A DNA stretch of 64,000 nt from Sphingopyxis sp. LC81 (lineage in GTDB: Bacteria; Pseudomonadota; Alphaproteobacteria; Sphingomonadales; Sphingomonadaceae). Within the stretch, counting starts at the first letter, position 1. Every line of letters begins with the position of its first letter. Below the pieces are notes generated by a model. The model was not told the DNA's origin, ran no database searches, and saw only the letters and a list, made by a program, of their open reading frames with translations. The stretch lies in assembly GCF_000756375.1 (NCBI RefSeq), contig NZ_JNFD01000007.1, forward strand, positions 62,001 to 126,000. The letters run 5' to 3'. A program made the translations under genes and the position numbers. This document shows positions 5,588-61,561 of this stretch, piece by piece.

Positions 5588-5600
5588 AGGAGAGAATTTG

Positions 5601-6320: not shown

Positions 6321-6321
6321 G

Positions 6322-7853: not shown

Positions 7854-7859
7854 TCGATC

Positions 7860-40970: not shown

Positions 40971-41006
40971 TCGGTGGCCGTGAGGGCCGTGCGGCGACTT
41001 GTGTCT

Positions 41007-41912: not shown

Positions 41913-41967
41913 CGGACTTTGCTCCCTATAGCTATTTCTTATGGCACTAGCAGTGAAAGCCTGATTT

Positions 41968-45227: not shown

Positions 45228-46464
45228 TCATGACGGAAAATGGCCCGAGGAGCCGGCGAGCCCGAAAGGAACCGCCTGGCAAGATCCGACGCGTGCCGTG
45301 CACGGCGGTCCCCGCCCGCGCGATCAGCGGGGCCTTATCAATCCGCCCGTCGATCGAGCTTCCACCATTATCTACGACAGCGTCGACGCCTATATGGACC
45401 GGCACCAAGGGCTCTACGACGAGGTCATCTATGGCCTCTACGGAACGCGAACGACCTTTGCGCTTGCCGAGGCTGTCAGCGAACTCGAAGGCGGCTGCGC
45501 CACTGTCATCACCTCGTCTGGAACCAGTGCGATCGCGCTAGCGCTCACCGCTTTCGTGGCCAGGGGCGACCATCTGCTCGTTGCGGATTGCGTCTATGGG
45601 CCGACCCGCAAGTTTCTGACCGACGTGCTCGCGCGCTTCGGGGTCGAGGTGGAATATTTCCGCCCCGATATCGGGGCGGAGATTGCCGGGCTGTGCCGCA
45701 GCAACACCCGGCTCATCTATATGGAGACCCCGGGGTCGCAGACATTCGATATGATCGACGTGCCCGCGATCACAGCGGTTGCACGCAGCCGGGGCATTTT
45801 GACCGCTCTCGATAACACCTGGGCGACACCGCTTTTCTTCAAGCCCTTGGCCCATGGCGTCGACATCTCGCTTGCCTCGGCAACCAAATATCTCTCGGGG
45901 CACTCCGACTGCCTGCTCGGCACGATGACGGCCGCCAGCGATGCCGTCTACCGCCAGCTCAAGGACGCGGCGGCGCGCTGGGGGAACTGTGCGAGTCCCG
46001 ATAATTGCTATCTGGTCCACCGCGGCATCAGGACGCTCGATGCACGCCTTGAACGCCACCAGCGCACCGCCGCAATGCTGATCGACTGGTTCGCTGAGCA
46101 ACCCGAAGTGGTTGCGGTCCGCTATCCGGCTCATCCCGCCGATCCCGGCCATGCTATCTGGAGGCGGGATTTCACCGGTGCATCCGGATTGTTCGGTGTT
46201 CAGCTCGATGGTCTTACCCCGGCGGAAACCAGTGCCTTTTTCAATGAATTCTCACTATTCCAACTCGGTTCGAGCTGGGGCGGTTTCGAAAGTCTCGCGG
46301 TTCCGGCGTGGCCCGCCCCGATCCGTGATTTTCCCAATGGCGAGGCGGATGGGGCGCTGATCCGTATTCACGCCGGCCTCGAAGCACCGCAGGATCTGAT
46401 AGCCGACCTCGCCGCAGCCTTCGCGCGGGTACGGGCGCTGCGCGGTCAGGGGCGGGCGTCATGA
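45217..46464 (+). CDS. metC: Cystathionine beta-lyase (Cys/Met metabolism PLP enzyme)
   Basis: 415 aa PLP-dependent enzyme of the Cys/Met metabolism family, which cleaves C-S bonds of cystathionine or similar thioethers to a thiol, pyruvate and ammonia. The PLP lysine is Lys224 (SATKYLSGHSD); YGLYGTRTTFALAEAVSELE and LDNTWATPLFFKPLAHGVDI are family hallmarks. Its ATG lies 11 nt inside the permease end, and its stop overlaps the ATPase start. Embedded in an ABC operon, it probably processes the imported substrate. Confidence 0.88.
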   Translation: MQDSHDGKWPEEPASPKGTAWQDPTRAVHGGPRPRDQRGLINPPVDRASTIIYDSVDAYMDRHQGLYDEVIYGLYGTRTTFALAEAVSELEGGCATVITSSGTSAIALALTAFVARGDHLLVADCVYGPTRKFLTDVLARFGVEVEYFRPDIGAEIAGLCRSNTRLIYMETPGSQTFDMIDVPAITAVARSRGILTALDNTWATPLFFKPLAHGVDISLASATKYLSGHSDCLLGTMTAASDAVYRQLKDAAARWGNCASPDNCYLVHRGIRTLDARLERHQRTAAMLIDWFAEQPEVVAVRYPAHPADPGHAIWRRDFTGASGLFGVQLDGLTPAETSAFFNEFSLFQLGSSWGGFESLAVPAWPAPIRDFPNGEADGALIRIHAGLEAPQDLIADLAAAFARVRALRGQGRAS

Positions 46465-47213
46465 CCGACGCCTCGGGCCACGCGGCCGTTAGCTTGCGGC
46501 AGGTCGACAAATATTATGGCGCCTATCACGCGCTCCGCTCGATCGACCTCGAAATCGCCCCGCGCGAGCGGATCGTGATTTGCGGGCCTTCAGGCTCCGG
46601 CAAATCGACGCTCATTCGCTGCATGAACATGCTCGAGGTGCCCGACTCCGGTGCCGTACTGATCGAGGGAGCCAAGATAACCGGCGCGTCGCGGGAGGCC
46701 GCCGCGGCGCTCCGCGCCGTCGGCATGGTCTTTCAACAGTTCAATCTGTTCCCGCACATGACGGTGCTGGAGAATTGCACCCTCGCGCCCGTCCTGCTCG
46801 GCGGCTTGTCACTTCGGGAGGCGGAAGCGCGCGCCATATCCTATTTGGACAAAGTAAGGATTGGCGATCAGGCGGGCAAATATCCGGGACAGCTTTCGGG
46901 AGGGCAACAACAGCGGGCCGCGATAGCCCGCGCTCTAACGATGGAACCCCGGATTCTTCTCTTCGACGAGCCGACCTCGGCGCTGGATCCCGAAATGATC
47001 AAGGAGGTGCTCGATGTGATGACGGCCCTTGCCGGCGAAGGACGGACGATGGTGTGCGTGACGCACGAAATGGGATTCGCGCGCGAGGCGGCCGATCGCA
47101 TTCTTTTCATGGACCAAGGGCAGATCATCGAAGCCGCAAGTCCGGCCGATTTTTTCGCCGCGCCGAAAAGCGAGCGCGCACGCACCTTTCTCGATCAGAT
47201 ACTTTCACATTGA
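46461..47213 (+). CDS. aapP: Amino-acid ABC transporter ATP-binding protein (AapP-like)
   Basis: 250 aa nucleotide-binding subunit. Walker A GPSGSGKST, Q-loop FQQFNLFPHMT, signature LSGGQQQR, Walker B ILLFDEPTSALDP and switch His (VTHEMGFAREAADRI) are all present. It belongs to the GlnQ/AapP group. Its ATG overlaps the lyase stop, completing the operon. It energises the fused permease. Confidence 0.92.
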   Translation: MTDASGHAAVSLRQVDKYYGAYHALRSIDLEIAPRERIVICGPSGSGKSTLIRCMNMLEVPDSGAVLIEGAKITGASREAAAALRAVGMVFQQFNLFPHMTVLENCTLAPVLLGGLSLREAEARAISYLDKVRIGDQAGKYPGQLSGGQQQRAAIARALTMEPRILLFDEPTSALDPEMIKEVLDVMTALAGEGRTMVCVTHEMGFAREAADRILFMDQGQIIEAASPADFFAAPKSERARTFLDQILSH

Positions 47214-47342
47214 GCGGTTCATGCGGGTCGCTCCAAGGTGTGCCGGCCTATTTGTCATGTCATTTCATGAGCAAGCTGAGCGAGGGGGCAATCGGCTCCA
47301 TGCGTGACAGGGCTCTGGCCAGCAAAAAAATTTCAAAATCGA

Positions 47343-47370
47343 TGAGGGGTAGAGCGTCGGGATGCGTATT
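47343..47370 (+). promoter_or_regulatory. ECF-type promoter motif upstream of the second TonB receptor
   Basis: TGAGGGG (47343-47349), 14 bp, GCGTATT (47364-47370). Same boxes and spacing as the copper promoters 9-17 kb away. Predicted start near 47376, about 120 nt before the receptor ATG. No other gene lies between, so the receptor and the PepSY genes behind it are the natural targets. Confidence 0.65.
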
Positions 47371-47433
47371 AAATACGTATCATGCGCCCTGAATATTCGT
47401 GATAACTAATTGATATGATTCAATAAATTCCTA

Positions 47434-47449
47434 TTGACCTGTATATACA
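47434..47449 (+). promoter_or_regulatory. Possible second promoter element/GntR operator upstream of the TonB receptor
   Basis: TTGACC (47434-47439) is directly followed by the perfect palindrome TGTATATACA (47440-47449). The sequence ACCTGTATA recurs as ACCTGTATAGAC just upstream of the GntR/UTRA gene (52441-52430, minus strand). The shared element suggests that regulator binds both sites. The palindrome resembles HutC-type operators in general form; this is from memory. Confidence 0.45.
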
Positions 47450-47496
47450 TTTGATGCTCTCTGAGGGGAATCAGCCAACCAACAGGGGGTTTCGCT

Positions 47497-50202
47497 ATGA
47501 TGACCAGGACATTTTTGCTCGCCAGCGCCGCTGTGGTCGCTACCTTTGCAACGCCGGCCCTTGCGCAGAGCGGTGCTTCTGGACAGGCCCCAGCCGCCGA
47601 GGATGCGCCCAACGGTTCTGACATCGTCGTGACCGGTTCGCGCATCCGCCGGCAGGATCTAGCCGGGGTCGGCCCGGCCACCGTCGTGTCGGCCGAGCAG
47701 ATCGAGAATACCGGCCTTGTCAATATCGAGACCGTGCTGCAGCGCCTCCCCGCCAATGCGGGCTTCGCGGGCAACCAGACCTCGGCCTATTGGGCGAACA
47801 ACGGCTATGGCACCGCGCAGGTGAACCTGCGCGGTCTCGGCATCAAGCGCACGCTGGTGCTCCTCAACGGCCGCCGTCTCGTCGCGGGTGGTACCGGGGC
47901 GAACTCGTCGCCCGACCTCAACATGATTCCCGTCGCAGCGCTCGCGCGCACGGATGTGCTCAAGGACGGCGCCTCGGCCATCTACGGTGCCGACGCTATG
48001 GCGGGCGTCGTCAATCTCGTGACGCGGACCGACTATGAGGGTCTTGGCCTCAGCGTGCGTCAGGGCATCACCGAAAAGGGCGACGGTTCGGATTCCACCG
48101 CCGACCTCCTCTGGGGCATCCGCAATGACCGCGGCGGTTTCATGGCCGCGGTTACCTACCAGAAGACCAAGGCGGTCAACATGGCCTCGCGGGCGCCATG
48201 CTCGCTCGCAGAGACGACACCCGGGTCCCTGAGCTGCGTCAACAGCGCCTCGACGATCGGCGGGCGCGCCGTGCTGCCGAACGGGCAGCAGATCAACTTC
48301 AACCAGGTGCCGGGCGGCAACGGCAATTTCTTCGAGCCGTACAGCGCGGCGAAGCATAATTTCAATTCGAACCCGTTTCTGAACGCGGTAAGCCCGGTCG
48401 AGCGCGTCAGCACCGCTTTCTTCGCCGACTATGATCTGACCGATAATATCGAGGCGTTCGGCGAGTTCCTCTACACCTTCCGCAAATCGAACCAGATCGC
48501 GACGCCGGGAACGCTGCGTAATCTGTCGATCGCGGCGAGCAACCCGACCAACCCGACGGGACAGAATATTGTCCTCATCCAGCGCCGCCTCGCCGAGCCC
48601 GGCCCGCGCCAATTCTTCCAGGAAACCGACACCTGGCAGGGCACCTTCGGCCTCCGCGGCAAGCTCTCGAACAATTGGGGATGGGAAATCGCGGGCGCGT
48701 TCGGCCGCAACACCGCGGTCGACGGTTCGACGAACATCGCCAATCTCGAGCGTGTCCGCAACACGATCGACACGACCAAGTGCAGCCTCGCCGCCGGCGC
48801 GACGATCCCCTGCGCCGACTATCTCGGCTTCGGCGACCTGACGCCCGAGGTACTCGACTATATTCTCTTCACCTCGCGTGATCGCGGCGGCAATGAGCTC
48901 GCGACGGTCACGGCCGACATCAATGGCGATCTGTTCAAGCTGCCCGCGGGGCCTGTCTCCTTTGCGGCGGGCGTCGTCTACCGCAAGGAGAAGGGCTGGC
49001 GCGATCCCGATCCGCTGACCGTGCTCGGCATCGCCAATACCAACCAGCAGAGCCCGATTTCGGGAACGAGCATCGCCAAGGAAGCCTATCTCGAACTGTC
49101 GGTGCCTATCCTCGCCGACAAGCCCTTCTTCCAGTCGCTTACCCTCGACGGCGCGGTTCGCTACTCGAACTACGACCTGTTCGGCAGCGACTGGAACTAC
49201 AAGGGCAGCGTCGACTGGGTCATTAACGACAGCTTCCGCCTGCGCGGGACCTATGGCACCGGCTTTCGCATTCCCAACGTCCCCGAACTGTTCGGCGGCG
49301 TGTCCGAAGGCAATTTGACGACGACCGATCCCTGCTCCCGCTACTCGACCAGCGGCAATGCCGGGCTGATCGCCAACTGCCGGGCATCGGGAGTCCCGGC
49401 GAACTATGTCCAGCTCGGTACGACGATCCTGACCACGGTCGGTGGTAACGAGAATTTGCAGCCCGAAAGTTCGACCACCTGGACGGTCGGGACGGTCGTT
49501 TCGCCCAAGGGGCTGATCCCGGGCCTGTCGCTCACCGCCGACTGGTTCGACATCAAGATCAAGGACGCGATCCGCGCGATCCCCGGATCGACCAAGCTCG
49601 CCATCTGTTATGCGAGCACGAATCTGTCGCATCCCTTCTGCGACGATTTCACGCGCAGCCCGCTCACCGGCGAAGTGACCTTCCTGTCGGCGCAGCCGAT
49701 CAACACCGGTCGCGAGGAAATGAACGGCCTCGATCTCGGTCTCGTTTACGCGGGCGGCATCGGCAGCGTGAATATCTCGCTCGACGTCAACCTGACCTAC
49801 CTCAACAAATATGTCGTGCTGCCTTTCCCCGGCGGCGCTCCGATCGATTTCGACGGCTTCATCGGGGGCGGCAATGGCGGCTATTCGAAATGGCGCGGCT
49901 ATGGTGTGCTGACGGCCGAAAAGGACGGGATCAGCGCGACCTGGTCGACCCAGTGGGTCGGCAAGGCGACCGACTTCAATGCGGCGCCGGGCGAAATCGG
50001 CTATCGCACGCCGAACGTCTTCTATCACAATCTCCAGCTCGCCTATGAGATCGACGAGAAGACCCGCTTCCAGCTTGGTGTCGACAACCTCTTCGACCGC
50101 AAGGCGCCCTATATCCAGAGCTTCACCGATGCGAACACCGACACGATGACCTATGATCTGCTCGGCCGGCGCTTCTATGTCGGTTTCCGCACCGCCTTCT
50201 GA
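47497..50202 (+). CDS. TonB-dependent outer-membrane receptor, predicted member of the ECF metal regulon
   Basis: 901 aa. Signal peptide (FLLASAAVVATFATPALAQ), plug with GSDIVVTGSRIRRQDLAGVG and LKDGASAIYGADAMAGVVNL, and a large barrel ending RRFYVGFRTAF. This Gly-Asp/Ile-Val-Val start is the sphingomonad type. It leads an operon with two PepSY membrane proteins and is preceded by an ECF-type promoter and a GntR-type operator candidate. Ligand unknown; context suggests a metal complex or metallophore, which is inference. Confidence 0.88.
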   Translation: MMTRTFLLASAAVVATFATPALAQSGASGQAPAAEDAPNGSDIVVTGSRIRRQDLAGVGPATVVSAEQIENTGLVNIETVLQRLPANAGFAGNQTSAYWANNGYGTAQVNLRGLGIKRTLVLLNGRRLVAGGTGANSSPDLNMIPVAALARTDVLKDGASAIYGADAMAGVVNLVTRTDYEGLGLSVRQGITEKGDGSDSTADLLWGIRNDRGGFMAAVTYQKTKAVNMASRAPCSLAETTPGSLSCVNSASTIGGRAVLPNGQQINFNQVPGGNGNFFEPYSAAKHNFNSNPFLNAVSPVERVSTAFFADYDLTDNIEAFGEFLYTFRKSNQIATPGTLRNLSIAASNPTNPTGQNIVLIQRRLAEPGPRQFFQETDTWQGTFGLRGKLSNNWGWEIAGAFGRNTAVDGSTNIANLERVRNTIDTTKCSLAAGATIPCADYLGFGDLTPEVLDYILFTSRDRGGNELATVTADINGDLFKLPAGPVSFAAGVVYRKEKGWRDPDPLTVLGIANTNQQSPISGTSIAKEAYLELSVPILADKPFFQSLTLDGAVRYSNYDLFGSDWNYKGSVDWVINDSFRLRGTYGTGFRIPNVPELFGGVSEGNLTTTDPCSRYSTSGNAGLIANCRASGVPANYVQLGTTILTTVGGNENLQPESSTTWTVGTVVSPKGLIPGLSLTADWFDIKIKDAIRAIPGSTKLAICYASTNLSHPFCDDFTRSPLTGEVTFLSAQPINTGREEMNGLDLGLVYAGGIGSVNISLDVNLTYLNKYVVLPFPGGAPIDFDGFIGGGNGGYSKWRGYGVLTAEKDGISATWSTQWVGKATDFNAAPGEIGYRTPNVFYHNLQLAYEIDEKTRFQLGVDNLFDRKAPYIQSFTDANTDTMTYDLLGRRFYVGFRTAF

Positions 50203-50213
50203 GGAATTGGGGG

Positions 50214-50918
50214 ATGGCGATACGTTGGCCGCTGCTCGTTCGGCGAACGCATAAATGGCTGGCGCTGGTCGTGGGCGTCCAGGCGTTGCTCTGGACGTTG
50301 ACCGGCTTCTACATGGTGGTCGTTCATATCGACACAATCCACGGCGATCATCTGGTGCGCACCCCCGTCGCCCAGCCCTTCGACCTCGATGGCCTCGCAG
50401 CGCCGTCGAAGGTCGTCGCGGCCGCGCCGGGAGTGTCTGAGATCCGTCTCCAGCGCTTTTTCGGTCAACCGGTCTGGCGTGCTGAAACGCCCGAGGGCGC
50501 GCGGCTGTTCGATGCGCGCTCGGGTGCGCCGCTGCCTGCTCTGACCGAGTCCCAGGTCCGCGAGCAGGCACGGCGCATTTATACGGGTGACGGCAAGATC
50601 GTGTCTGTGCGGTTGCTGACGAAGGCGCCGCAGGAGATGCAATCGCGCAAGCCGCCTTATTGGCAGGTCGAGTTCGAAGGCTGGAACCGCCCGACGCTCT
50701 ATCTGTCGCCGCAAACGGGCGAGCTCATCTCGCGCCGTCACGCGCTGTGGCGCGTCTTCGATTTTGCCTGGATGCTGCACATCATGGACTATGACGAGCG
50801 GACCGACGTCAACAACCCATTGCTTCGTGTCGCGACCTGGAGCGCCTTTGCGATGGCGCTGACGGGTGCCTGGCTGCTGATCTGGTCCTTCAAACGCCGC
50901 AAAAGGAAGCAGGCATGA
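50214..50918 (+). CDS. PepSY-domain membrane protein (first of pair)
   Basis: 234 aa. An N-terminal helix (about 16-36, HKWLALVVGVQALLWTLTGF), a periplasmic PepSY-like region, a second helix near 192-215 after the HxxD segment MLHIMDYDERTDVNNPLLRV, and a basic tail. PepSY_TM proteins following TonB receptors are thought to be ferric or metal-chelate reductases with His-bound heme; His12 and the conserved MLHIMDY His fit that. It starts 11 nt after the receptor and overlaps the next gene. Confidence 0.82.
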   Translation: MAIRWPLLVRRTHKWLALVVGVQALLWTLTGFYMVVVHIDTIHGDHLVRTPVAQPFDLDGLAAPSKVVAAAPGVSEIRLQRFFGQPVWRAETPEGARLFDARSGAPLPALTESQVREQARRIYTGDGKIVSVRLLTKAPQEMQSRKPPYWQVEFEGWNRPTLYLSPQTGELISRRHALWRVFDFAWMLHIMDYDERTDVNNPLLRVATWSAFAMALTGAWLLIWSFKRRKRKQA

Positions 50919-51649
50919 AGAAGATTCGCCTGACGCCGCTATTTTTCCGGCGCATCCACAAATGGGTCGGCCTGATCCTCGGGCTTCAATTCCTACTCTG
51001 GGCGCTCAGCGGCTCGGTGATGGCGCTGCTCGACAAGGACAAGGTCGGCGGCCACGGCGGCGGCATGTCGCACGCGCATCCGCTACCGGCCGGGGAATAT
51101 TTCGGCGTCGCGGGCTTGCCCCGCGGTGAGCCCGTTACTGGAGTGGTTTTGCGCGATCTGGGCCTCCGACCGGTCTACGAACTCCGCACCGCCAAAGGCG
51201 TGCGGCTCGTCGACGCCACGAGCGGCGAGGATATTCGTGTCGACGCAGGGATGGCCCGCGAAGTCGCATCGATGATGAACGAAGCACCGATCCGCAAGGT
51301 GAGCGTGATTGCAAAGCCCAACCTCGAATCGCGCGACCATGAAGGTGCGATGTGGCGCGTCGACTTTGCCGATGCCGAGAATAGCAGCGCCTATATCTCA
51401 CTCGACACCGCGCGCTTCCTCGTGATGCGCGGTGATACCTGGCGCACTTGGGACTTCTTCTGGATGCTGCACAACATGGATTATGTGAACCGGAAGAGCT
51501 TCAATCACCCGCTGATCATCTTCGTCGCATTCGGCGCGCTGTGGTTGTCTGGGACCGGCTTCTATCTGCTCTTCAAAAGCTTCAGCCGCGCCGATTTCCG
51601 CTGGCTACGCCGTCGCCGTAAGCCCATCGTTACTCGCAGCACGGCCTGA
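50915..51649 (+). CDS. PepSY-domain membrane protein (second of pair)
   Basis: 244 aa paralogue of the preceding gene: HKWVGLILGLQFLLWALSGS near the start and FWMLHNMDYVNRKSFNHPLI before the C-terminal helix. A His-rich loop (KVGGHGGGMSHAHPLPAGEY) follows the first helix and could bind metal. ATG 50915 overlaps the first PepSY gene. The pair probably works as a heterodimer in the inner membrane; the gene then faces the convergent GntR gene four bases away. Confidence 0.82.
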   Translation: MKKIRLTPLFFRRIHKWVGLILGLQFLLWALSGSVMALLDKDKVGGHGGGMSHAHPLPAGEYFGVAGLPRGEPVTGVVLRDLGLRPVYELRTAKGVRLVDATSGEDIRVDAGMAREVASMMNEAPIRKVSVIAKPNLESRDHEGAMWRVDFADAENSSAYISLDTARFLVMRGDTWRTWDFFWMLHNMDYVNRKSFNHPLIIFVAFGALWLSGTGFYLLFKSFSRADFRWLRRRRKPIVTRSTA

Positions 51650-51653
51650 CCGG

Positions 51654-52424
51654 TCAGTCTTCGACCGAAAACGCTGCGGAAAGCTCGAAGCGCGTGCCGG
51701 GATGGGAGAGCCAGGCGTGCGACACCAGCCGACCGTTGCTCCAAGTCCGCCGGGTCATGCGCAGAACCGGTTCCCCCTCGTTGAGACCAAGCATGCCGCG
51801 CGTACGCGCGTCGGGCATTTCCGCGCGGACGCGGTGCTCGACCCGCTCAAGCGGCGCAGTGCGCGTCAGATACTCGTTCGGGGTCAATTGCGTGAAATCC
51901 AGTGTACCATAATCGGGCGCGGCGGACGCGAGCACGAACCGCTCTTCGAGCTGGATCGGGAACTCGGCCTCGTGGTGGACGATGATCGAATGGAAGATTT
52001 TCGTGCCCACCGGCACCTCTAGCAGCGCGGCGGTCTCCGCGCTGGCCTTCTCCTCGACGTTCTGGATGACCCTCGCGCGGTAGTCATGGCCGCGTCCGCG
52101 AATCTCCTCGGCAATGTTCCGAATCTCGATCATATGGCCGATCGGCTTCGGCTCGGCGATGAACGAGCCGCTGCCTGCGCGGCGGACGATGATACCTGCC
52201 GATTGCAACTCCCGAAGCGCCCGGTTCGCCGTCATGCGCGAGACGTCGAACTGCCCAACCAGATCGGCTTCCGATGGCACGCGGTCGCCCGGTTTCAAAC
52301 GGCCGTCGCGGATGGCATCATGGATGCTTTGCTTGATCGCCGCGTAGCGCGGTGGGGCATCCGGGGAAGCACCGTCGGCAGACCGCTGGGCGCTGTTCGA
52401 GTTCAGTCGAGGCATAAGATCCAT
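51654..52424 (-). CDS. GntR-family regulator with UTRA domain (HutC subfamily)
   Basis: 256 aa. N-terminal GntR helix-turn-helix (KQSIHDAIRDGRLKPGDRVP, SEADLVGQFDVSRMTANRAL) and a C-terminal UTRA ligand domain (NEYLTRTAPLERVEHRVRAE). HutC-type proteins sense small metabolites such as urocanate. It is convergent with the PepSY genes, and its upstream region repeats the ACCTGTATA element of the TonB receptor promoter, suggesting autoregulation and control of that operon. Start ATG 52424 or 52415; a GTG at 52427 is also in frame. Confidence 0.88.
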   Translation of the reverse strand: MDLMPRLNSNSAQRSADGASPDAPPRYAAIKQSIHDAIRDGRLKPGDRVPSEADLVGQFDVSRMTANRALRELQSAGIIVRRAGSGSFIAEPKPIGHMIEIRNIAEEIRGRGHDYRARVIQNVEEKASAETAALLEVPVGTKIFHSIIVHHEAEFPIQLEERFVLASAAPDYGTLDFTQLTPNEYLTRTAPLERVEHRVRAEMPDARTRGMLGLNEGEPVLRMTRRTWSNGRLVSHAWLSHPGTRFELSAAFSVED

Positions 52425-52771: not shown

Positions 52772-54109
52772 CTAGGCTGCCTCGCGCCTTGGGGCCTCCT
52801 GTCGATCAAGGAACTCGGCGAGGGCCGCCTTCCGCGATGCGCGATCGAGTGAGTATGCACGCTGTTTGAAAAACTTTCCGTCGAGCAGCGCGGCAATGTA
52901 GCCGGCCACCGTGTCGGCAGCCATAATCAGTGCTGCGTCGAGGACGTGGATATATTTGCTCGTTACCGACCCCTTCGCATGACCCATGAGGGCGGCGATA
53001 GTGACCTCGGTGAAGCCGAGGTCATTGCCGATGCTCGCGAAGCTGTGGCGCAGGACGTGAGGAGTGACGCCCTCAAGTGGTGAGCCAAGGAAAATCTCGT
53101 TCCAATGGTTGGGAAGCCCGCCGAATGCGGTGTCTTCGCCGCGTGGCCCAGAAAATACATAGGTGCCATTGTCGTCGCTCTCACGCGATTCCAGAAACTC
53201 GACGACCGGCAAACCGACGGGACGGACCGACTTTCCCTCCTTGCTTTCGGCGAGGCGAAGGCAACTTCCATCGATATCGACATCACACCATTTGAGATTG
53301 ATAATCTCACCGCGTCGGCAGCCCGTAAGTGCGATTTGCCGAATGATATCGATGGTCGGGCCGAACTTCTCGATTTGCGCAGCGGCCTTGAGCATGCGGC
53401 CAAGAATTCGATACTCGCCGTCGTTGAGGCGGCGCGAGCGGACATTGTCTTTGGGGCGTTTGATGCCATGCGCGGGATTGCTGTCGATGATGCCGAGATC
53501 GACGGCATAAGTTAGTATTCCGCCAATCAATCCAAGCGTTCGAGCCGCGGTGCCTGGCCCACCACGCACATTGGCGCGGCCGCGGAGTTTTTTGGTCTTG
53601 ATGAAGGCTTTGGTCTTGCCCGCCATGATATCGCGCATGGCTTTGGTGAGGATCGCCTTGGAGAGGTCCTTGACCCTGCGGGACCCGAGGAGCGGTATGA
53701 CGTGCCGTTCGATCCGGCCCAGATCGATGTCGACGGTCGATTGCTTCTTGGGACGGCCTCCCTTGCCCAGTATAAGCCCGTCCCTGAGATCCTGCATGTA
53801 GAGTTCGCAGAGCTCCTTCATCGACATCGCTTTGTTGAGCTCGGCCCGTTCTTCGGCCGGGTCCTCGCCCTGAGCAACTCTACCGAGTTGGGACTTGGCC
53901 TCGCGCCTGGCAGTCTCCGGAGTCCAGATGCCGTGGATGCCGATTGTATAACGCCGCGAGCGGCCTCCGGCGCGATACTGAATGAGATAGCTGCGCTTTC
54001 CGGTGGGGAATATCCGCAGCCCGAAGCCAAGTAGTTCTTCGTCCCACAGGACATAATCCTTCGTCTCTGCTACAGCTGCATCGACAACGCGCTTGGTCAG
54101 TTTGACCAT
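52772..54109 (-). CDS. Tyrosine site-specific integrase of the element
   Basis: 445 aa phage/ICE-type tyrosine recombinase. N-terminal arm-binding domain (DYVLWDEELLGFGLRIFPTG), SAM-like core-binding domain (about 95-200), and a catalytic domain with Arg265 (LTGCRRGEI), His351-x-x-Arg354 (HVLRHSF), His377 (LMGHAKG) and nucleophile Tyr386 (SKYIHV). ATG 54109 is chosen because it gives the family start (MVKLTKRVVDAAVAETKDYV). It lies about 180 bp from the tRNA-derived attachment site and would integrate and excise the element. Confidence 0.93.
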   Translation of the reverse strand: MVKLTKRVVDAAVAETKDYVLWDEELLGFGLRIFPTGKRSYLIQYRAGGRSRRYTIGIHGIWTPETARREAKSQLGRVAQGEDPAEERAELNKAMSMKELCELYMQDLRDGLILGKGGRPKKQSTVDIDLGRIERHVIPLLGSRRVKDLSKAILTKAMRDIMAGKTKAFIKTKKLRGRANVRGGPGTAARTLGLIGGILTYAVDLGIIDSNPAHGIKRPKDNVRSRRLNDGEYRILGRMLKAAAQIEKFGPTIDIIRQIALTGCRRGEIINLKWCDVDIDGSCLRLAESKEGKSVRPVGLPVVEFLESRESDDNGTYVFSGPRGEDTAFGGLPNHWNEIFLGSPLEGVTPHVLRHSFASIGNDLGFTEVTIAALMGHAKGSVTSKYIHVLDAALIMAADTVAGYIAALLDGKFFKQRAYSLDRASRKAALAEFLDRQEAPRREAA

Positions 54110-54289
54110 CGAGCCAACTCCGGTTTGGCCCGGTTTTCGCGTAAGCACCACGTAAGCACGCGGAAGGAAATCGGGGCGAATTCAAGGTTACGGCAGCGCA
54201 GATCGACAAATCAAGAATAGCGTTGTATTATAGTGGTTTAGGATATAAAAACTTGCTCTGGCGTTGGCTGGCGCAAACATGCTAGTACC

Positions 54290-54336
54290 CCCTCCGAAGG
54301 CAGAGGCCAGGGGTTCGAATCCCTTCGGGTGCGCCA
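54290..54336 (+). other. Attachment site: 3' half of tRNA-Arg(CCG)
   Basis: The stretch holds the anticodon loop CTCCGAA, the 3' anticodon strand GGCAG, the T arm AGGGG-TTCGAAT-CCCTT, the acceptor strand CGGGTGC and encoded CCA (54334-54336). The 5' half (acceptor strand, D arm, 5' anticodon strand) is absent; upstream bases do not pair. This is the duplicated tRNA 3' end left when an element integrates, so the element lies to the left and the intact tRNA-Arg should be at its other end, outside this window. Confidence 0.85.
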
Positions 54337-54695
54337 TTTTTCCTTAGGAAAGCTGCGGTTTTCGGGAAGGTGGCGAGATAGATCCTGCAACATCTTGCAG
54401 GAACAAGCAGCGATTTTCGCGCGATCCGTACAATTCCCGTACAGCATGTTCCCTTGCCGTTCTCTCTGCGATGTAGAGCATTGCGCGAACAAATGGCATG
54501 ACCGCGCGGTCCGAATCGAAGTAAAAGCTCCGCGATTCCAAAGCTTAGGGGTGTCTTGGACGTCGTCGAAGATCGCAACCCGCCTTGATTAGAGGAGCAT
54601 TTGAAATGCCGACCGCCGGCGAGCCTTCTCGCTGATGGCCACCGCTGACCTCAAAGCGACTGTTAGACAACAATGCCCTCAAGACATGGGGCGCA
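54337..54695. other. Gene-poor chromosomal flank after the attachment site
   Basis: About 360 bp between the tRNA remnant and the oxidoreductase stop. Short frames exist (for example a 65-codon minus-strand frame at 54344-54541), but third positions are not GC-rich and no ribosome site is convincing. No repeat or terminator recognised beyond a CCTTAGG-type AT-rich start. Confidence 0.4.
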
Positions 54696-56114
54696 TCAGG
54701 CGGCTTGCAGATTTGCCTCCTTGGCCGCATTTGCCGGATCGATCGTTACGCCGGGGCCGGCCGTACCGAACCTGCGCTCCACGCGAATGCCCATCGATTG
54801 CAGGAAGCCAGTGGATAGCTCGCCGCCCGCGCAAATGATGACATCGTCGTTCGGCAGGTCGAGCAGTTCGGCGTGATGCCGGAGCGCGATGGCGCCATGT
54901 CGCACCTCCTCCACGGACGATTGGAGATATAGCGTTACCCGGCCCTCCTCCACCGCGGCAGCGATCGCGTCGCGATTCTGCCGTCGCGTCCGGCTAAAAG
55001 CCTCCCGCCGATAGGAAAGGGCGACCTCGGTGCCCGGCTGCTCGGCCAGCGCGACAGCGGCCTCGATCGCGCTGTCGCCGCCGCCGACGACCAGCACGCG
55101 CCGGCCGGCATATTGCGCCGGGTCGGTCAGGCGATAGACGACGTTGCTCCGCTCCTCGCCCGGCACGCCCAGCTTGCGCGGGGTTCCGCGCCGGCCGATC
55201 GCCAGCAGCACCCGCCGGGCGCGATACACGCCGTGCGCTGTTCTGACTGTAAAGCCCCGGTCGCCGGGCGTGATATCCACCACTCTTTCGTTGCAGCGGA
55301 TATGCAGCCCGGTCCGGTCGATGACGTCCTGCCATATCCCCAGCAACGCTTCCTTGCGGATTTCACGGAAGCGGAGTTCCCCGAACAGCGGCAGTTTTAC
55401 CGGTGCGGTCATAATCAGCTTGTTGCGCGGGAAATGCGCTACGGTTCCGCCCAGGCTATCTTGCTCGACCGTTTCGAAACGCAGGCCGAGTTCCATCGCC
55501 CGCAGGCTGGCGGCAATACCCGCCGGACCCGCGCCGACGATCATCAGGTCGAGCATGTCGTGCGCATCATCGGCTTCGTTCGCGGCGGCGATCGCGTCGA
55601 CAGCCTCGGTCCCCTGTTTCACGGCGTTGCGGATCAGCCCCATGCCGCCGATCTCGCCGGCGAGATAGATACCGGGGACATTGGTTTCGAAATCGGGACT
55701 GACGAACGGAATGTCGATGCCGCGCGTGGCCGTGCCAAAGACCAGCGACAGCGCGTCGGCCGGGCATGCCTGCTGGCAGGCGCCGTGCCCGATGCAGCGG
55801 GTCGGGTCGATGAGCGTGGCTTTCCCCTCCAAAAGACCGAGCACGTCGCCTTCGGGGCACGCCAGCACACATGCCGAACAACCGATGCATTTGGCGGTGT
55901 CGATGACGGGGTGGAGCGAATTGGGCTCGGTCAGCCCGGCGTCGCGCGCATCTTCCAATATGGTGTGACTTTTGCGCTCGATCGCGCGGTGCCGCGCCCA
56001 ATAGCTCAGCCAGATGGGCAATGCCGGGAGCGCGTAGGCGAGCGCCGCCGTGTCAAACGGCAGTCTTGGTAACGCCAAGAGGGCGTCGGCGAAAACCGCC
56101 GGGTCAAAGGGCAT
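54696..56114 (-). CDS. Ferredoxin-FAD oxidoreductase (two FeS sites fused to thioredoxin-reductase-like domain)
   Basis: 472 aa. N-terminal hydrophobic segment (about 20-40), then a 2[4Fe-4S]-like ferredoxin: CIGCSACVLACPEG (Cys76, 79, 82, 86) and CIGHGACQQACP (Cys107, 113, 117, with His110 at the second Cys position). From about 190 an FAD/NAD(P) oxidoreductase follows: IVGAGPAGIAAS and VLVVGGGDSAIEAA. It could pass electrons from NAD(P)H to the divergent cytochrome operon or to a quinone; that partner is inference. Confidence 0.87.
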   Translation of the reverse strand: MPFDPAVFADALLALPRLPFDTAALAYALPALPIWLSYWARHRAIERKSHTILEDARDAGLTEPNSLHPVIDTAKCIGCSACVLACPEGDVLGLLEGKATLIDPTRCIGHGACQQACPADALSLVFGTATRGIDIPFVSPDFETNVPGIYLAGEIGGMGLIRNAVKQGTEAVDAIAAANEADDAHDMLDLMIVGAGPAGIAASLRAMELGLRFETVEQDSLGGTVAHFPRNKLIMTAPVKLPLFGELRFREIRKEALLGIWQDVIDRTGLHIRCNERVVDITPGDRGFTVRTAHGVYRARRVLLAIGRRGTPRKLGVPGEERSNVVYRLTDPAQYAGRRVLVVGGGDSAIEAAVALAEQPGTEVALSYRREAFSRTRRQNRDAIAAAVEEGRVTLYLQSSVEEVRHGAIALRHHAELLDLPNDDVIICAGGELSTGFLQSMGIRVERRFGTAGPGVTIDPANAAKEANLQAA

Positions 56115-56443
56115 TGCGACTCCATCATATGTCTGCGGATTTTTCCGCTATTTTCCCCTCTGGATGCCCTCCGCGGCCCTAAGAGCCGTCATTGCCACAA
56201 GAGGAAAGACCCCCTGCGCTCGGCGGTGCGGCATTCGCGTCGATGGGAGGTTGGGGCCGCGTCTCTGTTCGGCGCTCGGGGCGGCGAGCGATATGGATTT
56301 TTGACCAAAGCCGCGTTCAGTTCTTTTGAAATCAATGTGCAAAATATGGAAGGAGTAGGCCAAATTATATAGATAGACTAATAATTTGTCATGCCGAAGA
56401 GGGAGGTCTAGCCTAGTAAACATGCCCTAGAGGGTGGACCAAA
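56115..56443. promoter_or_regulatory. Divergent intergenic region between oxidoreductase and cytochrome operon
   Basis: 329 bp with a marked AT-rich part at about 56320-56395 (unlike the GC-rich surroundings), where promoters of the cytochrome operon probably lie. The ribosome site of the next gene is GAGGGTGGA, 5-6 nt before ATG 56444. I cannot name specific -35/-10 boxes. No GAGGG-N15-GCGTAT motif is present. Confidence 0.45.
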
Positions 56444-57337
56444 ATGGAGTCGGAACAGCTCACTCTCGCAGCCAGAGAGGCGTCGGCACCCCAAAGGAAA
56501 GCAATTGTTTCTTTTGAAACAGTTTTTTCCTTCCTTATTTTATTGTTCATACCCGCCGCCATCCTGTGGGGCTGGTGGCATCGCGCGGAATTGCCGACGC
56601 CCGAGGATGGCCTTGGTTATGCTCTCGGGATCATCGGCGTGACGATGATGGCCATCCTTATGATCTATCCGCTCCGCAAAAGGCTGACCGGAGCAACATG
56701 GATGGGATCGGTCGGCACCTGGTTTCGCATCCACATGCTGCTTGGCCTGCTCGGGCCGCTGGTCATTCTTTACCACGCGCGCTTTACCTGGGCGGCGACG
56801 AACAGCGGTGTCGCGCTGCTTGCCTTGTTGGTGGTGGTCGCAAGCGGGCTTTTCGGGCGCTTTCTATATGTCCATATCCATCGCGGATATTCGCAGCGAA
56901 AGCTGGAAGTTCGCGATTTTCTCGACGAACTTGGCGAATCGCGGCTCCTGCTCGACGCCGATGGCGACGCCGGTCACCTTATCGTCGGCTATCTTCGCGA
57001 GCTTGAGCGGCACGCCCTGGAAAAGCGGTCCAACCTGCTTCATGGCGCGTTCGCGGTGTTTTCCATCACGGTCCGCACCTGGCTGTTCGCCTGGCGCCTT
57101 CGAGGTGTCGTGCGCACCGAACTGGCACGGGAGGCTTCGCTTCCGGGCCGGCGGGCGACGACCGACAGCCAGGCGTTGATCGATCACCTGACGCGCTATC
57201 TGCAATCGATCCGTGACGTCGGCGGGTTCGCCTTCTACGACCGCCTGTTCCGGGCCTGGCATTATCTGCACGTGCCGCTGTTCCTGTTCCTCGCGATGAC
57301 CGTGGCGCTGCACGTCCTCGCCGTCCATATGTACTGA
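56444..57337 (+). CDS. b-type cytochrome-like membrane protein of the multiheme operon
   Basis: 297 aa with five or so membrane helices. Paired His candidates for heme: His in RIHMLLGLLGPLVILYHARF (two His 14 apart on one helix) and in WHYLHVPLFLFLAMTVALHV plus VHMY on the last helix, the layout of diheme ferric-reductase or cytochrome b561-like proteins. A soluble helical insert lies at about 150-245. Its stop overlaps the 21-heme gene start (ATG within TGATG). Likely the inner-membrane electron entry point of the operon. Confidence 0.75.
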   Translation: MESEQLTLAAREASAPQRKAIVSFETVFSFLILLFIPAAILWGWWHRAELPTPEDGLGYALGIIGVTMMAILMIYPLRKRLTGATWMGSVGTWFRIHMLLGLLGPLVILYHARFTWAATNSGVALLALLVVVASGLFGRFLYVHIHRGYSQRKLEVRDFLDELGESRLLLDADGDAGHLIVGYLRELERHALEKRSNLLHGAFAVFSITVRTWLFAWRLRGVVRTELAREASLPGRRATTDSQALIDHLTRYLQSIRDVGGFAFYDRLFRAWHYLHVPLFLFLAMTVALHVLAVHMY

Positions 57338-58944
57338 TGTCGCGGACCTCGGTCCTTGTCGGCGCGCTCGTGCTGCTGGCGATGATCGGGGGACTGCTCG
57401 CGTTGCGCCCGACGTTGGAGCGGCTGGTCAGTCCGGGCCCGCTGCGCCCCGCGCATGCGAAGATCGAGGCGCGCTGCGGCGCCTGCCATTATTCCTTCAC
57501 CCCGTCGGCCGAGAATGGCAAGTGCAAGGCTTGCCATGCGGGCGTCGCCAACGATGTCCGCACGCGCACCGGCTTTCACGGTCGCACGCCAGCGGCCGCG
57601 AAACAGCAATGCCGTGCCTGCCATCTCGAGCATCAGGGCGCCGTCCAGTTCGCCGCGAACCTCAAGGGCACTGGCTTCGACCATGGCAAGACCGATTTTC
57701 CCATCCACGGCAAGCATCGCGGTGTCGCCTGCGCGAACTGCCACAAGTCCGGAATGAAGTTTCGTGCCGCGCCCGCCGCCTGCGTTGCCTGCCATGTCAA
57801 AGACGACGTCCATCAAACCCGTTTCGGTAAGAATTGCGCCAGCTGCCACAGCGAAAGCGGCTGGAAGATCATCCATAAGTTCGATCACGCGGCGACCGGT
57901 TTTCAATTGGTCGGCGCGCATCAGACGACCGCTTGCGCCGATTGCCATGTCGCCAATCGCTTCGCCGGAACGCCGAAACAATGCGTCGCCTGCCATCTGG
58001 CGGACGATGTCCACAAGGGGCGCAACGGCACCGACTGTGCCAGCTGCCACACCCCGCTGAGCTGGAAAGGCGCCCTGTTCGACCATGGGCGGACGCGTTT
58101 TCCGCTCGTCGGCCAGCATCGCGCGGTCCCCTGTACCGCCTGCCACGGCGCCCGGAACGAGCGGCTGCGTCCGCCGATGCAGTGCGCCGCCTGTCACCGA
58201 AAAGACGATGTCCATAAGGGCGTCAACGGCAGCAACTGCGCGACCTGCCATTCGCCAGCGAGCTGGAAAGGCGCGTTTTTCGATCACAACAAGGCGACGC
58301 GTTTTCCGCTGCTCGGGGCGCACAAGCGGGTGCGCTGCGCCACCTGCCACGTCAAGCCTGTGCACAGCTTCAAACCATCGCGCGAATGCGCCGGATGCCA
58401 TGTCCGCCAGGATCCCCATCAGGGCAAGCTGGGGCGAAATTGCGCGGCGTGCCACACGCAGGACCGCTGGCGGCCGGCGCCGGGCTTTCATCATGCCGCG
58501 ACGCGCTTTCCGCTGACCGGCGCCCACAGCCGCGTCGCGTGCGCCGATTGTCACCGGAATATGCAGTTCCGCGCCGCGGGTGTCACATGCGCCAGTTGCC
58601 ACGCCGACATCGCGCACAAGGGCCGGTTCGGCACGCCAGCGAGGTGTGAGACATGCCACACGACCGCGCGCTGGACCGGCGCGCGGTTCAACCATGATCG
58701 CACGGGTTTTTCGCTGACCGGCCGCCATGCCCGGCTCGCCTGCAACAGCTGCCACACCAGGCCGGCGGCGACCGCGCGGCTGCCGGTGGGCTGTTACGGC
58801 TGCCACAAGGCCGACGATCATCACGAAGGCCGTTTCGGCACGAAATGCGAAACCTGCCATGTCGGGGGCGACAGCTTCAAGACGGTGCGCGTCCCCGCGA
58901 ACGCGCGCCGCCATCCGGATTTCGACGGGAGGCACCTGCGATGA
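57337..58944 (+). CDS. 21-heme c-type cytochrome with six tandem three-heme repeats
   Basis: 535 aa with 21 CxxCH motifs counted by eye. One N-terminal membrane helix (about 7-24) anchors it. After three N-terminal hemes, six repeats of about 66-67 residues follow, each starting with a F-x-H-x-x-T-x-F-x-L-x-G-x-H element (for example FDHGRTRFPLVGQH) and carrying three hemes; DDVHKG and similar segments recur. The additional His supply distal ligands. Such a chain can carry electrons over many nanometres across the periplasm. It overlaps the 5-heme gene (ATGA). Confidence 0.92.
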   Translation: MSRTSVLVGALVLLAMIGGLLALRPTLERLVSPGPLRPAHAKIEARCGACHYSFTPSAENGKCKACHAGVANDVRTRTGFHGRTPAAAKQQCRACHLEHQGAVQFAANLKGTGFDHGKTDFPIHGKHRGVACANCHKSGMKFRAAPAACVACHVKDDVHQTRFGKNCASCHSESGWKIIHKFDHAATGFQLVGAHQTTACADCHVANRFAGTPKQCVACHLADDVHKGRNGTDCASCHTPLSWKGALFDHGRTRFPLVGQHRAVPCTACHGARNERLRPPMQCAACHRKDDVHKGVNGSNCATCHSPASWKGAFFDHNKATRFPLLGAHKRVRCATCHVKPVHSFKPSRECAGCHVRQDPHQGKLGRNCAACHTQDRWRPAPGFHHAATRFPLTGAHSRVACADCHRNMQFRAAGVTCASCHADIAHKGRFGTPARCETCHTTARWTGARFNHDRTGFSLTGRHARLACNSCHTRPAATARLPVGCYGCHKADDHHEGRFGTKCETCHVGGDSFKTVRVPANARRHPDFDGRHLR

Positions 58945-59408
58945 TCAAAGCCTGGATCGCCCTGCTGGGCTGTTTCCTTGTCGCCGCGCTGGCGGCCGCG
59001 GCGACGTCCGAGCCGCCGCCGATCAAGGTCATCGACCGCTATGACCATATCTCGACGGGGTTCGTGCTCGACGGGCGGCATGCCGAAATCGGCTGCGACA
59101 CCTGCCACGCCAAGGCGGTGTTCCGCGGTACGCCGCGCACCTGCGCCGCCTGTCACAACAATGTCCGCGCCGAGGGCAAGACGTTCCGCCACATCCCCAC
59201 GACCGATGCGTGCGAAAGCTGTCATACCACCAAGGACTGGCTGACCGCGCGCTTCGACCACAGCGGCGTCGTCACCAACTGCGTCAGTTGCCACAATAAT
59301 TTCCAGGCACCCGGCAAGACCGCCAACCACCCGCCGACCAGCAATCAATGCCAGGATTGCCACCGGGCGATCCATTGGAACCAGCTGTTGCCGGGAGCGG
59401 CGCCATGA
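58941..59408 (+). CDS. Periplasmic 5-heme c-type cytochrome
   Basis: 155 aa: signal peptide (MIKAWIALLGCFLVAALAAA) and five CxxCH motifs (CDTCH, CAACH, CESCH, CVSCH, CQDCH). It contains one copy of the repeat of the preceding gene (YDHISTGFVLDGRHAEIGCD), so it is a small paralogue of the 21-heme protein. Length and heme number suit a shuttle between the long cytochrome and the outer-membrane barrel. Start overlaps the 21-heme stop and its stop overlaps the barrel start. Confidence 0.92.
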   Translation: MIKAWIALLGCFLVAALAAAATSEPPPIKVIDRYDHISTGFVLDGRHAEIGCDTCHAKAVFRGTPRTCAACHNNVRAEGKTFRHIPTTDACESCHTTKDWLTARFDHSGVVTNCVSCHNNFQAPGKTANHPPTSNQCQDCHRAIHWNQLLPGAAP

Positions 59409-61561
59409 GCGCGCATGCCGCCTTTGAAGCCTTGCTCAAGATCGCGCTCGCGCTGTTGTTGCTGTTTTGGGCGAGCCATGCCGGGGCACAGCGCAGCGGC
59501 GACAAGGTGTTGGCCGACGCAAGCGCCGCGGGCACCATCGACTGCCCGACCGTGACGATTCACTTCACGGGTCCGATCCGTTACAGCGGCGCGGCCCCGA
59601 CCGACCAGGGAATGGACGTGCGATTGCGGGTCGAGATGGTGCAGCTCGGCGCGCGTCCCGATCGCGATTTCCTACCGGTGCCCGATGGCACGCCGCTGGT
59701 CCGTTCGATCGTCTATGAAGCCGACGCCGTCGGCGGGCCGGTGCTGACGATCGGTTTTCGCACGCTCACCCGCTTCGAAATCGCGCTGGGACATGACTCG
59801 CAAAGCTTGGTGCTGTCGCTGCGCAACACCGCCCTTCAAGGCGGCTGCCCGGTCGAACCGGCTGCGGACGGCGCCGTTGCGCCGCTGGACGGTGACGAAT
59901 TGCGCCGTCTCCAGGCCGTGGCCGAGGAAGCCGTGGCGGCCGGCCAATATGAAGCGGCCGGTGACGCGCTCGACCGCATCCTTGGCCAAGGCGACACCGA
60001 TTATGCACCGCGCGCGCTGGAACTCAGCGGCATGATCCACGAACGCCGCGGCGAACGCGGGCCGGCGCGGCTGCGCTATGAGGAATATCTGCGGCGTTTT
60101 CCGGGCTCGCCGGGCGCCGACCGGGTCGGGCAGCGGCTGGCGGCGCTGGGCCGGGGCGGCGGGGGCGAGCCCGCACGGCCGAGCTTGGACGGGCGCGAGT
60201 GGCGCACCACCTTCTCGGGCGGTCTTTCGCAATTTTATTCGCGCGATACCAGCCGCAATGTTTTCGTCGATGCGCGCCGGCCCGATCCGATCGAGGAGAT
60301 CGACCGGCGCGTCAATATCGACCAGTTGCTGACCGCGATCGACATCAACATGGCGGCGACCAACGGCGAAACGCGGTTCAGCGCGCGCGCCGCCGCCAGC
60401 TATACGCTCGATTGGCGGCCGGTCACGCTTGTCGGCTCCTCGCGCAGTTCGGGCGACGACACCCAGCGCATCGCCGCGCTGTACATCGATGCCCAGCATT
60501 ATCGGCTTGGCCTTTCGGCGCGGATCGGGCGGCAGTCGCTGTTCGGCTCGGGCGTATTCGGCCGGTTCGACGGCATCCGCGCGGGATGGGAGATCGATCC
60601 GTCGTGGACGCTCCACGCACAGGCGGGGCGTCCGGTCTTTTCGACCCGCACCGACCGGATCGTGCATGACCGGCATTTTTATGGCTTCACGCTGGGCTAT
60701 GCGCCGCGCGACAAGCCGTTCGAGCTCAATGCTTATTGGTTCGATCAAAAAAGCGGCGGGCTGACCGACCGGCAGGCGGTCGGCGTTGAGGCGCGCTATA
60801 GCACGCCGGGGGTCGCTTTGTGGGGGCTGGTCGACTTCGACGTCGGCTTTGGCAAGCTCAGCCATGCCTTCCTGAACGCCACCGTGCCGCTGCGGGGCGG
60901 CGGCAGCCTGGGCGTGCAGTTCGACCAGCAATATTATCCCCAACTCTCGCTCAGCAACAGCGTGATCGGCCAGTCGGTGCACCGCCTCGGCGAGCTCAAG
61001 CAGCTGTTCACGCGCCAGACGCTGGAACAATGGGCGCGCGATCGATCGGCACGAACGCGCAGCCTGTCGGTGGTTTATACGCAGCCGCTGACACCCAAAT
61101 GGCAGGCCAATCTCGACCTCATCCTGTCGCGTACCGACAGTATCCCGGCATCGGGCGGGGTCGATGCGGTCGCGGGCAGCGGTACCGAAACTTATCTGGG
61201 CGCGCAGATGACGGGCAACGGCATCGTCAGGAAAGGCGACACGCTCATCTTTGGGGTGCGCCATGCGCGGACGGCCCGTTTCAACATCATTTCGTTCGAT
61301 TCGGCGGCGCGCTTTCCCGTGGGGCCGGTCAGCTTCGAGCCGCGATTCCGTTTCGCGCGGCGCTCCGATCGCTTTGGCCCGGGCGACCAAAATGCCTATC
61401 GCCCCAGCCTGCGCGTCACTTACGCCGCGTCGACGAAGGTGGCGCTGGACGCCGAAATCGGCTTCACCTTCCTCGATCAGCGATGGTCGGACGCGGCGTT
61501 CGTCGGCAAAAGCGAAGAGCGCGCGACGATCTTAAACCTTGGCTATCGTGTTTCGTTCTAG
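59405..61561 (+). CDS. Large outer-membrane beta-barrel with TPR-like N-terminal domain
   Basis: 718 aa. Signal peptide (LKIALALLLLFWASHAGAQ), an N-terminal beta domain (to about 155), a tetratricopeptide-like helical part (about 175-255, EEAVAAGQYEAAGDALDRIL), and a long beta-rich region from about 270 with alternating hydrophobic residues ending in ATILNLGYRVSF (terminal Phe, as in outer-membrane barrels). Start ATG 59405 overlaps the 5-heme stop. In this context it may be the porin sheath of an electron conduit, analogous to MtrB; direct similarity is not shown. Confidence 0.75.
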   Translation: MSAHAAFEALLKIALALLLLFWASHAGAQRSGDKVLADASAAGTIDCPTVTIHFTGPIRYSGAAPTDQGMDVRLRVEMVQLGARPDRDFLPVPDGTPLVRSIVYEADAVGGPVLTIGFRTLTRFEIALGHDSQSLVLSLRNTALQGGCPVEPAADGAVAPLDGDELRRLQAVAEEAVAAGQYEAAGDALDRILGQGDTDYAPRALELSGMIHERRGERGPARLRYEEYLRRFPGSPGADRVGQRLAALGRGGGGEPARPSLDGREWRTTFSGGLSQFYSRDTSRNVFVDARRPDPIEEIDRRVNIDQLLTAIDINMAATNGETRFSARAAASYTLDWRPVTLVGSSRSSGDDTQRIAALYIDAQHYRLGLSARIGRQSLFGSGVFGRFDGIRAGWEIDPSWTLHAQAGRPVFSTRTDRIVHDRHFYGFTLGYAPRDKPFELNAYWFDQKSGGLTDRQAVGVEARYSTPGVALWGLVDFDVGFGKLSHAFLNATVPLRGGGSLGVQFDQQYYPQLSLSNSVIGQSVHRLGELKQLFTRQTLEQWARDRSARTRSLSVVYTQPLTPKWQANLDLILSRTDSIPASGGVDAVAGSGTETYLGAQMTGNGIVRKGDTLIFGVRHARTARFNIISFDSAARFPVGPVSFEPRFRFARRSDRFGPGDQNAYRPSLRVTYAASTKVALDAEIGFTFLDQRWSDAAFVGKSEERATILNLGYRVSF

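Follow-up and report, generated by a model that had tools for sequence, protein, structure and literature searches.

The window analysed here is a stretch of 64,000 nucleotides of Sphingopyxis sp. LC81 (contig NZ_JNFD01000007.1, here C7, positions 62001-126000), taken from a draft genome of 4.40 Mb in 48 contigs (G000). It contains one end of an integrative and conjugative element (ICE), and we hold with high confidence that this end is the right attachment site of an element of roughly 147 kb, which has broken the host gene for tRNA-Arg(CCG) and replaced it whole with a complete copy that it carries itself. A preliminary description of the window had recognised the right end of an ICE in tRNA-Arg(CCG), with more than 54 kb of element and its other end to the left, and our analysis supports this placement. 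Its further assumption, that a 47-bp repeat rebuilds the host gene, does not hold: the two parts of the gene are not rejoined, and its place is taken by another full-length tRNA whose sequence is different. The right end consists of the following features:

52772-54109, minus strand: tyrosine integrase of 445 amino acids (Arm-DNA-bind_3, Phage_int_M and Phage_integrase domains by Pfam)
54141-54147, plus strand: first copy of the arm-type repeat GTAAGCA, at -151 from the core
54152-54158, plus strand: second copy of GTAAGCA, at -140 from the core, the pair being 11 bp apart
54290-54336, plus strand: displaced 3' half of the host tRNA-Arg(CCG), the host side of the right attachment site (attR), assigned from its single match in the genome and its identity in genus-mates
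54292-54298, plus strand: CTCCGAA, the 7-bp crossover core corresponding to the anticodon loop, placed by the start of identity in aligned right ends and by a non-tRNA insertion site

The 3' half with its CCA end, which had already been noted, is the only copy in the draft: a 45-bp pattern allowing up to three mismatches matches once in the 4.40 Mb, and a reversed control pattern not at all. In genus-mates whose gene is uninterrupted, the 3' part of that gene has exactly this sequence. The reading frame reported nearby does encode a tyrosine integrase and starts 181 bp away; if translation began instead at a GTG at 54151, the longer frame would run into an arm repeat. Across 60 genus genomes, all 16 full-length integrase matches of at least 56% identity lie 177-192 bases from such a 3' half, and this geometry, together with the identity to the genus-mates' gene, shows that the half beside the integrase is not there by chance. 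ARAGORN found no complete tRNA in the window. When right ends are aligned by their CCA end, identity with the tRNA begins at CTCCGAA (54292). Two exact arm copies, 11 bp apart and between -159 and -137, are present in 27 of 33 right ends, a single copy in five and none in one; the GTAAGCA repeats are probably the arm sites of the integrase. Integrases 96% identical to the one in the window occur in Sphingopyxis sp. H050, a Sphingomonadaceae bacterium and a metagenome-assembled genome.

The left end, with an intact tRNA-Arg(CCG), had been expected to the left of the window. The direction stands, but no tRNA is found anywhere on C7, and by inference the end lies on another contig, C17. There, a lone 5' half of the host tRNA begins at 66470, is cut at the anticodon loop (core at 66502-66508) and continues into non-tRNA sequence; a complete tRNA-Arg(CCG) starts 291 bp downstream of that position (66761-66837), 244 bp inward of the half. 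To the left of the 5' half are core-type genes, named by reading as hisC, tyrA-like and yeiH-like. Put together, the 5' half on C17 and the 3' half in the window give the uninterrupted gene of genus-mates letter for letter. In a conventional tRNA-borne ICE, a 3' half contributed by the attachment site of the circular element (attP) regenerates the host gene at the left end, and the half in the window would be the displaced duplicate. Such a structure follows the general rule of the Islander paper, which describes the tRNA as restored from an attP fragment (PMC4383910), and three relatives (G006, G023 and G043) look conventional. It does not account for a lone 5' half at the left end that runs on into non-tRNA sequence, nor for a complete tRNA whose anticodon and T stems are not those of the native gene, and we consider it extremely improbable for the element described here.

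In order to define the occupied region, we fetched seven relatives with an uninterrupted tRNA, an empty-site comparison that the preliminary description had proposed. In six of them (G029, G050, G005, G019, G007 and G051) yeiH, the tRNA and a CoA-transferase gene (that of C7:131440) lie together, with 0.05 to about 2 kb between the tRNA and the CoA-transferase gene; in the seventh, G022, yeiH is present and the 6 kb retrieved do not include the right-hand marker. In G000, yeiH is on C17 and the CoA-transferase gene on C7. Since the site is contiguous in relatives, the sequence from C17:66508 to about C7:131.4 kb has been inserted in G000. G044, a genome of one contig, has a single 166.6-kb element in which the genes of the right part of C17 are directly followed by the first genes of C7; the trb block comes next, then the cargo, an integrase of 96% identity and finally the 3' half. 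The genes that form the cargo at C7:20.9-50 kb are ordered differently there. The two genes at the join of C17 and C7 adjoin each other in G044 as well as in G018. The two contig ends share an 86-bp inverted match of 98.8%, which we read as a probable assembly hairpin at the join; no forward overlap exists between the end of C17 and the start of C7. Joined in this way, the element would measure about 146.8 kb.

To characterize the left end more broadly, we compared 26 left ends that had been selected for a split 5' half, all from Sphingomonadales and representing two families. In all 26, the 5' half is followed by two arm-type repeats (GTAAGCA, GGAAGCA or CTCACC) 11 bp apart and then by a complete tRNA, the first repeat lying at +102 to +115 from the first base of the core, or at +90 or +91 in the CTCACC group. 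The three conventional elements have one exact arm motif at +105, so the arm spacing is about equal in both types. A view of the core comes from the rhizobial plasmid pAtK224b, which carries a 59.4-kb element with a 57%-identical integrase. Although equipped with arm repeats and a complete tRNA-Arg(CCG), this element sits in non-tRNA DNA, in a transposase gene whose only likeness to the tRNA is the 7-bp core of the anticodon loop. Its flanks, searched apart, matched 12 and 13 plasmid records; in the eight records in which both flanks occur together, mostly annotated as transposase, exactly seven bases lie between them, and in the one empty site inspected these are CTCCGAA. The 7-bp empty site therefore identifies the core as the anticodon loop and shows that the tRNA moves with the element. 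These observations also bear on the possibility of two events, in which the 5' half and a short remnant would go back to an old element, and the complete tRNA would have been regenerated by a second element, of the conventional kind, at the inner edge of the first. Tandem and nested insertions are common at the locus, which would favour such a history; however, the same module of 5' half, arm repeats at fixed spacing and complete tRNA recurs in 26 diverged left ends, on pAtK224b arm repeats and tRNA occur at a site other than a tRNA gene, bordered by one 7-bp core, and G001, G044 and G018 have one full-length integrase of the clade each, adjoining the single 3' half listed. We regard two separate events as very unlikely.

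A second insertion into non-tRNA DNA is likely in Pelagerythrobacter, where a 91%-identical integrase is present and the core CTCCGAAGGC continues into an open protein frame, consistent with use of a secondary site. We also considered this right end as a decayed tRNA half and rejected that, as one flank frame is open and an intact tRNA exists elsewhere. On Bradyrhizobium plasmids, integrases of 67-69% identity are accompanied by 3' halves, one plasmid having two; a complete tRNA-Arg(CCG) was not found on the two Bradyrhizobium plasmids searched.

The carried tRNA can itself be entered. At the left end of H050, the native 5' half comes first, decayed at 5 of its 42 bases; arm repeats and the 5' half of a carried tRNA are next, and a further set of arm repeats leads to a complete carried tRNA. 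The 3' half next to the H050 integrase belongs to a carried tRNA. Two 5' halves are present in G437, and in each of G027, G049 and G057 one 3' half matches a carried and not the native tRNA. Taken together, these halves indicate that carried tRNAs become targets in turn, giving rise to nested arrays. The idea that the difference in the anticodon stem renders a carried tRNA immune to its own integrase was dropped, because the 96%-identical integrase of H050 has such a tRNA's 3' half beside it, and the matching 5' half stands at the other end.

The draft contains 42 identifiable tRNA genes, all typed. Among them, arginine is represented by one gene each for ACG, CCG, CCT and TCT, and the only CCG gene is the carried copy on C17. 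In such a tRNA set, a CCG tRNA is required for reading CGG, a codon used in 97 of the 117 core genes called on C7. In G001, G044, G018 and G057, all the other full-length typed hits are ACG, CCT or TCT, one weak hit in G057 being untyped. An alignment of the native gene with 13 carried tRNAs (13 distinct rows) has every helix cell paired, with 9 of 21 pairs changed on both sides, while slid controls are 33-55% paired. None of 500 shuffles reaches the observed value for four of five measures and 140 do so for the number of pair types, the test being generous on account of the relatedness of the rows. Judged by their sequences, compensatory changes keep the carried genes folded and they are maintained as tRNAs. 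The best promoter box found by a best-match script in the seven most similar left ends, TTGACC-18-TAGGCA at 10 bp before the tRNA, is weak. A carried tRNA might alternatively be ordinary cargo that helps to translate CGG-rich element genes, its closeness to the split gene being incidental. CGG does occur 17.5 times per 1000 codons in the called element genes, compared to 10.3 and 14.4 in two core stretches; against this, the carried tRNA is the same as the broken one and occupies a constant place in all 26 selected left ends, so that we think the cargo explanation exceedingly unlikely. With no other CCG gene found in G000, the carried copy must stand in for that of the host, even if it has further roles.

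We propose that replacement comes about as follows. The integrase would bind the arm repeats, and the circular element would insert at the 7-bp anticodon loop CTCCGAA, leaving the host 5' half at one end (C17:66470) and the 3' half at the other (54292-54336 of the window). Because integration parts the two halves, the native gene is destroyed. The complete tRNA (C17:66761-66837), located beyond the left arm repeats, would then supply the CGG-reading tRNA, provided that it is expressed. Precise excision would be expected to restore the native gene, and the Trb system could mediate conjugative transfer.

Of the 60 genus genomes, 30 yielded loci, and 13 of these 30 have a 5' half before a complete tRNA; adding G031, the arrangement is present in at least 14 of the 60, the other genus genomes having been judged from the match table or a few loci. 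In G042 and G058 a split 5' half lies at a contig end. A scan of 396 genomes of the order detected the integrase (E<=1e-120) in 17 genomes from 10 genera and two families; 13 of these are outside the genus, and 12 of the 13, all except G311, have the arrangement. Among 385 genomes of the class, the integrase occurs in four, our own included, and in the other three it likewise lies at a tRNA-like 3' half, as judged from their right ends. At 17 of 18 loci with the integrase, a tRNA-Arg(CCG) 3' half starting CTCCGAAGGC adjoins it, the exception being Pelagerythrobacter. In a phylogenetic tree of 31 clade members and five outsiders, the integrase clade is fully supported, and replacement-type elements lie on either side of its deepest fork. 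The 31 integrases sort into 25 of the replacement type, three conventional ones, which form one fully supported group, and three in neither class (G311, G049 and Pelagerythrobacter); in draft genomes the ends were paired by genome and not always by contig, and the inner element of G027 and the two elements of G437 were sorted from partly overlaid left ends.

Several observations weigh against replacement, or against our reconstruction of it. The sister elements in G006, G023 and G043 share a 66-67%-identical integrase, the 3' half, the core and one exact arm motif on each side (+105 and -138/-139), but their left end differs: it holds an intact tRNA with the native sequence, and a lone 5' half is absent. 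G311 has integrase and 3' half, and no tRNA-Arg(CCG) was found in it, three weaker hits being untyped. Pelagerythrobacter has an intact native-type tRNA elsewhere, and no carried tRNA was found. No joined attP was detected in 80 genus genomes, the pattern returning only eight right ends at two mismatches, a result that is still compatible with excision to a circle. At the C17 left end, a general promoter scan returned no terminator and a single promoter-like site, distinct from the box ahead of the carried tRNA. The 42 include no Ala(TGC) or Ile(GAT) tRNA, and to that extent the draft is incomplete. Finally, the sequence does not cross the presumed join of C17 and C7.

Other loci depart from the common order. 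In G040, the 5' half with the complete tRNA and the 3' half with the integrase are on opposite strands, 178 kb apart, which by sequence is an inversion in or around the element. One contig of G049 has a hybrid intact tRNA made of a native 5' half and a carried-type 3' half, and another has the integrase followed by the same 3' half and the same flank, so that the assembly maybe contains both the occupied and the empty site. In G033, a truncated integrase, a complete carried-type tRNA and an inverted 3' half with two mismatches lie within about 3 kb, the rearranged remains of an element. G021, G046, G034 and G056 have further variants of tRNA-Arg(CCG), with no lone 5' half close by; since a native 3' half lies at a distance of 9 kb in G056, the gene may also serve as a target for other integrases.

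Among known systems, the closest are tRNA- and tmRNA-targeting islands of the Islander class (anticodon-centred subsite 'A'), which have in common with our element a tyrosine integrase next to the attachment site, crossover in the anticodon loop, a tRNA fragment at one end and tandem arrays, according to PMC4383910. In our element, too, the crossover lies inside the tRNA gene and a fragment is displaced; however, no attP fragment regenerates the gene, which stays split while a complete second gene is carried. Given the length and configuration filters described in that paper, an Islander-type finder would probably take the carried tRNA as the beginning of the island and overlook the 5' half. 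Archaeal tyrosine-recombinase elements such as SSV1 also use the 7-bp anticodon loop as overlap, but, according to PMC8371274, recombination itself reconstitutes an uninterrupted tRNA. Three further papers concern different cases, namely archaeal tRNA disruption (PMC3293823), a sphingomonad plasmid whose host attachment site (attB) is at the 3' end of a seryl-tRNA gene (PMC3516476), and a Sphingopyxis granuli genome with putative ICEs (PMC4741004). Trb-type ICEs of Alphaproteobacteria resemble our element in integrase, trb genes, relaxase-like and coupling proteins and metal cargo, and differ from it in the tRNA replacement module. We know of no described ICE with such a module. A search of the open-access literature, outside which older work on integration sublocations lies, returned no description of whole-tRNA replacement. 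A phage origin was considered and rejected, as the integrase has no match at E<=1e-50 in 50,697 phage records; no separate search for structural genes was made.

The remainder of the element is that of an ICE: it has the integrase, attachment sites at both ends (the left one by inference from G044 and the contig ends), a type IV secretion system, a relaxase and a coupling protein. The trb genes reported in the preliminary description are real, with Pfam matches of T2SSE/TrbB type, TrbE, TrbL, VirB8/TrbF type, CagX/TrbG type and TrbI; the relaxase-like protein has a DUF3363 domain and a weak MobA/VirD2 relaxase match, and the coupling protein matches T4SS-DNA_transf. Most cargo genes of 38499-51649 are matched in the G044 element, and the regulator next to the integrase is 99% identical to the integrase neighbour in G027 and G044.

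C7:56809-58569 and C7:58584-60596, left of the window: relaxase-like protein and coupling protein (Pfam)
1586-10620, plus strand: trb-type conjugation genes TrbB, E, L, F, G and I (Pfam)
11255-37906: metal cargo including RND-type pumps (by reading; names other than the two Pfam assignments below are from translations)
28267-30588: P-type ATPase within the metal cargo (Pfam)
37382-37906: DUF411 protein within the metal cargo (Pfam)
38499-51649: further cargo with TonB-type receptors, ABC and PepSY-like membrane proteins (gene calls, named by reading)
51654-52424, minus strand: GntR/UTRA regulator adjoining the integrase (Pfam)
54337-61561, outside the element: older accessory block with a ferredoxin/FAD protein and CxxCH-rich proteins (by reading; Pfam for 54696-56114)
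62045-64000, minus strand, beyond the element: first part of a second accessory block, read as glucosidase-like, which runs past the window and ends at C7:131271-131374

The DNA to the right of the 3' half had been described as a different locus. It does lie outside the element, but it is not the ancestral flank, since about 15 kb of accessory DNA and a second, degenerate tRNA-Arg(CCG) 3' half (C7:131271-131374) intervene before the core genes start. The block 54337-61561 is absent from the empty sites compared and is found in G027 between the 3' half and the core CoA-transferase gene; as 54696-61561 lies directly between the two there, it is older than or independent of the ICE. The second block, from 62045-64000 on to C7:131.0 kb, has glucosidase-, TonB- and LacI-like genes (named by reading), and relatives of the LacI-like gene (54-55%) occur near the tRNA in G006 and G033 too. 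The sequence upstream of the degenerate half resembles the right ends of the conventional elements in G006, G023 and G043, and the half is probably a relic of an older element that has lost its integrase.

Island finders rest on the rule that an attP fragment rebuilds the tRNA gene, and the group of elements described here replaces the gene instead. This group spans two families of Sphingomonadales, and more distant Alphaproteobacteria have related integrases that lie at tRNA-Arg(CCG) halves. An essential tRNA gene thereby becomes a horizontally exchanged part, which may explain some of the variation in tRNA-Arg(CCG) among genus-mates. We tentatively raise the possibility, which we would rate at somewhat below even chances, that these ICEs hold an essential tRNA gene hostage and so constitute an addiction system that does without a toxin. 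If so, any loss other than precise excision would be lethal, and as the displaced halves decay, as in the oldest 5' half of H050, precise excision would fail and replacement would become permanent. Carrying the whole gene would free attP from matching the host beyond 7-10 bp and could widen the host range, and every carried copy would be the next target, leading to nested arrays. For the question of whether mobile elements can ensure their own maintenance by way of an essential gene, with no toxin involved, the group offers a simple test.
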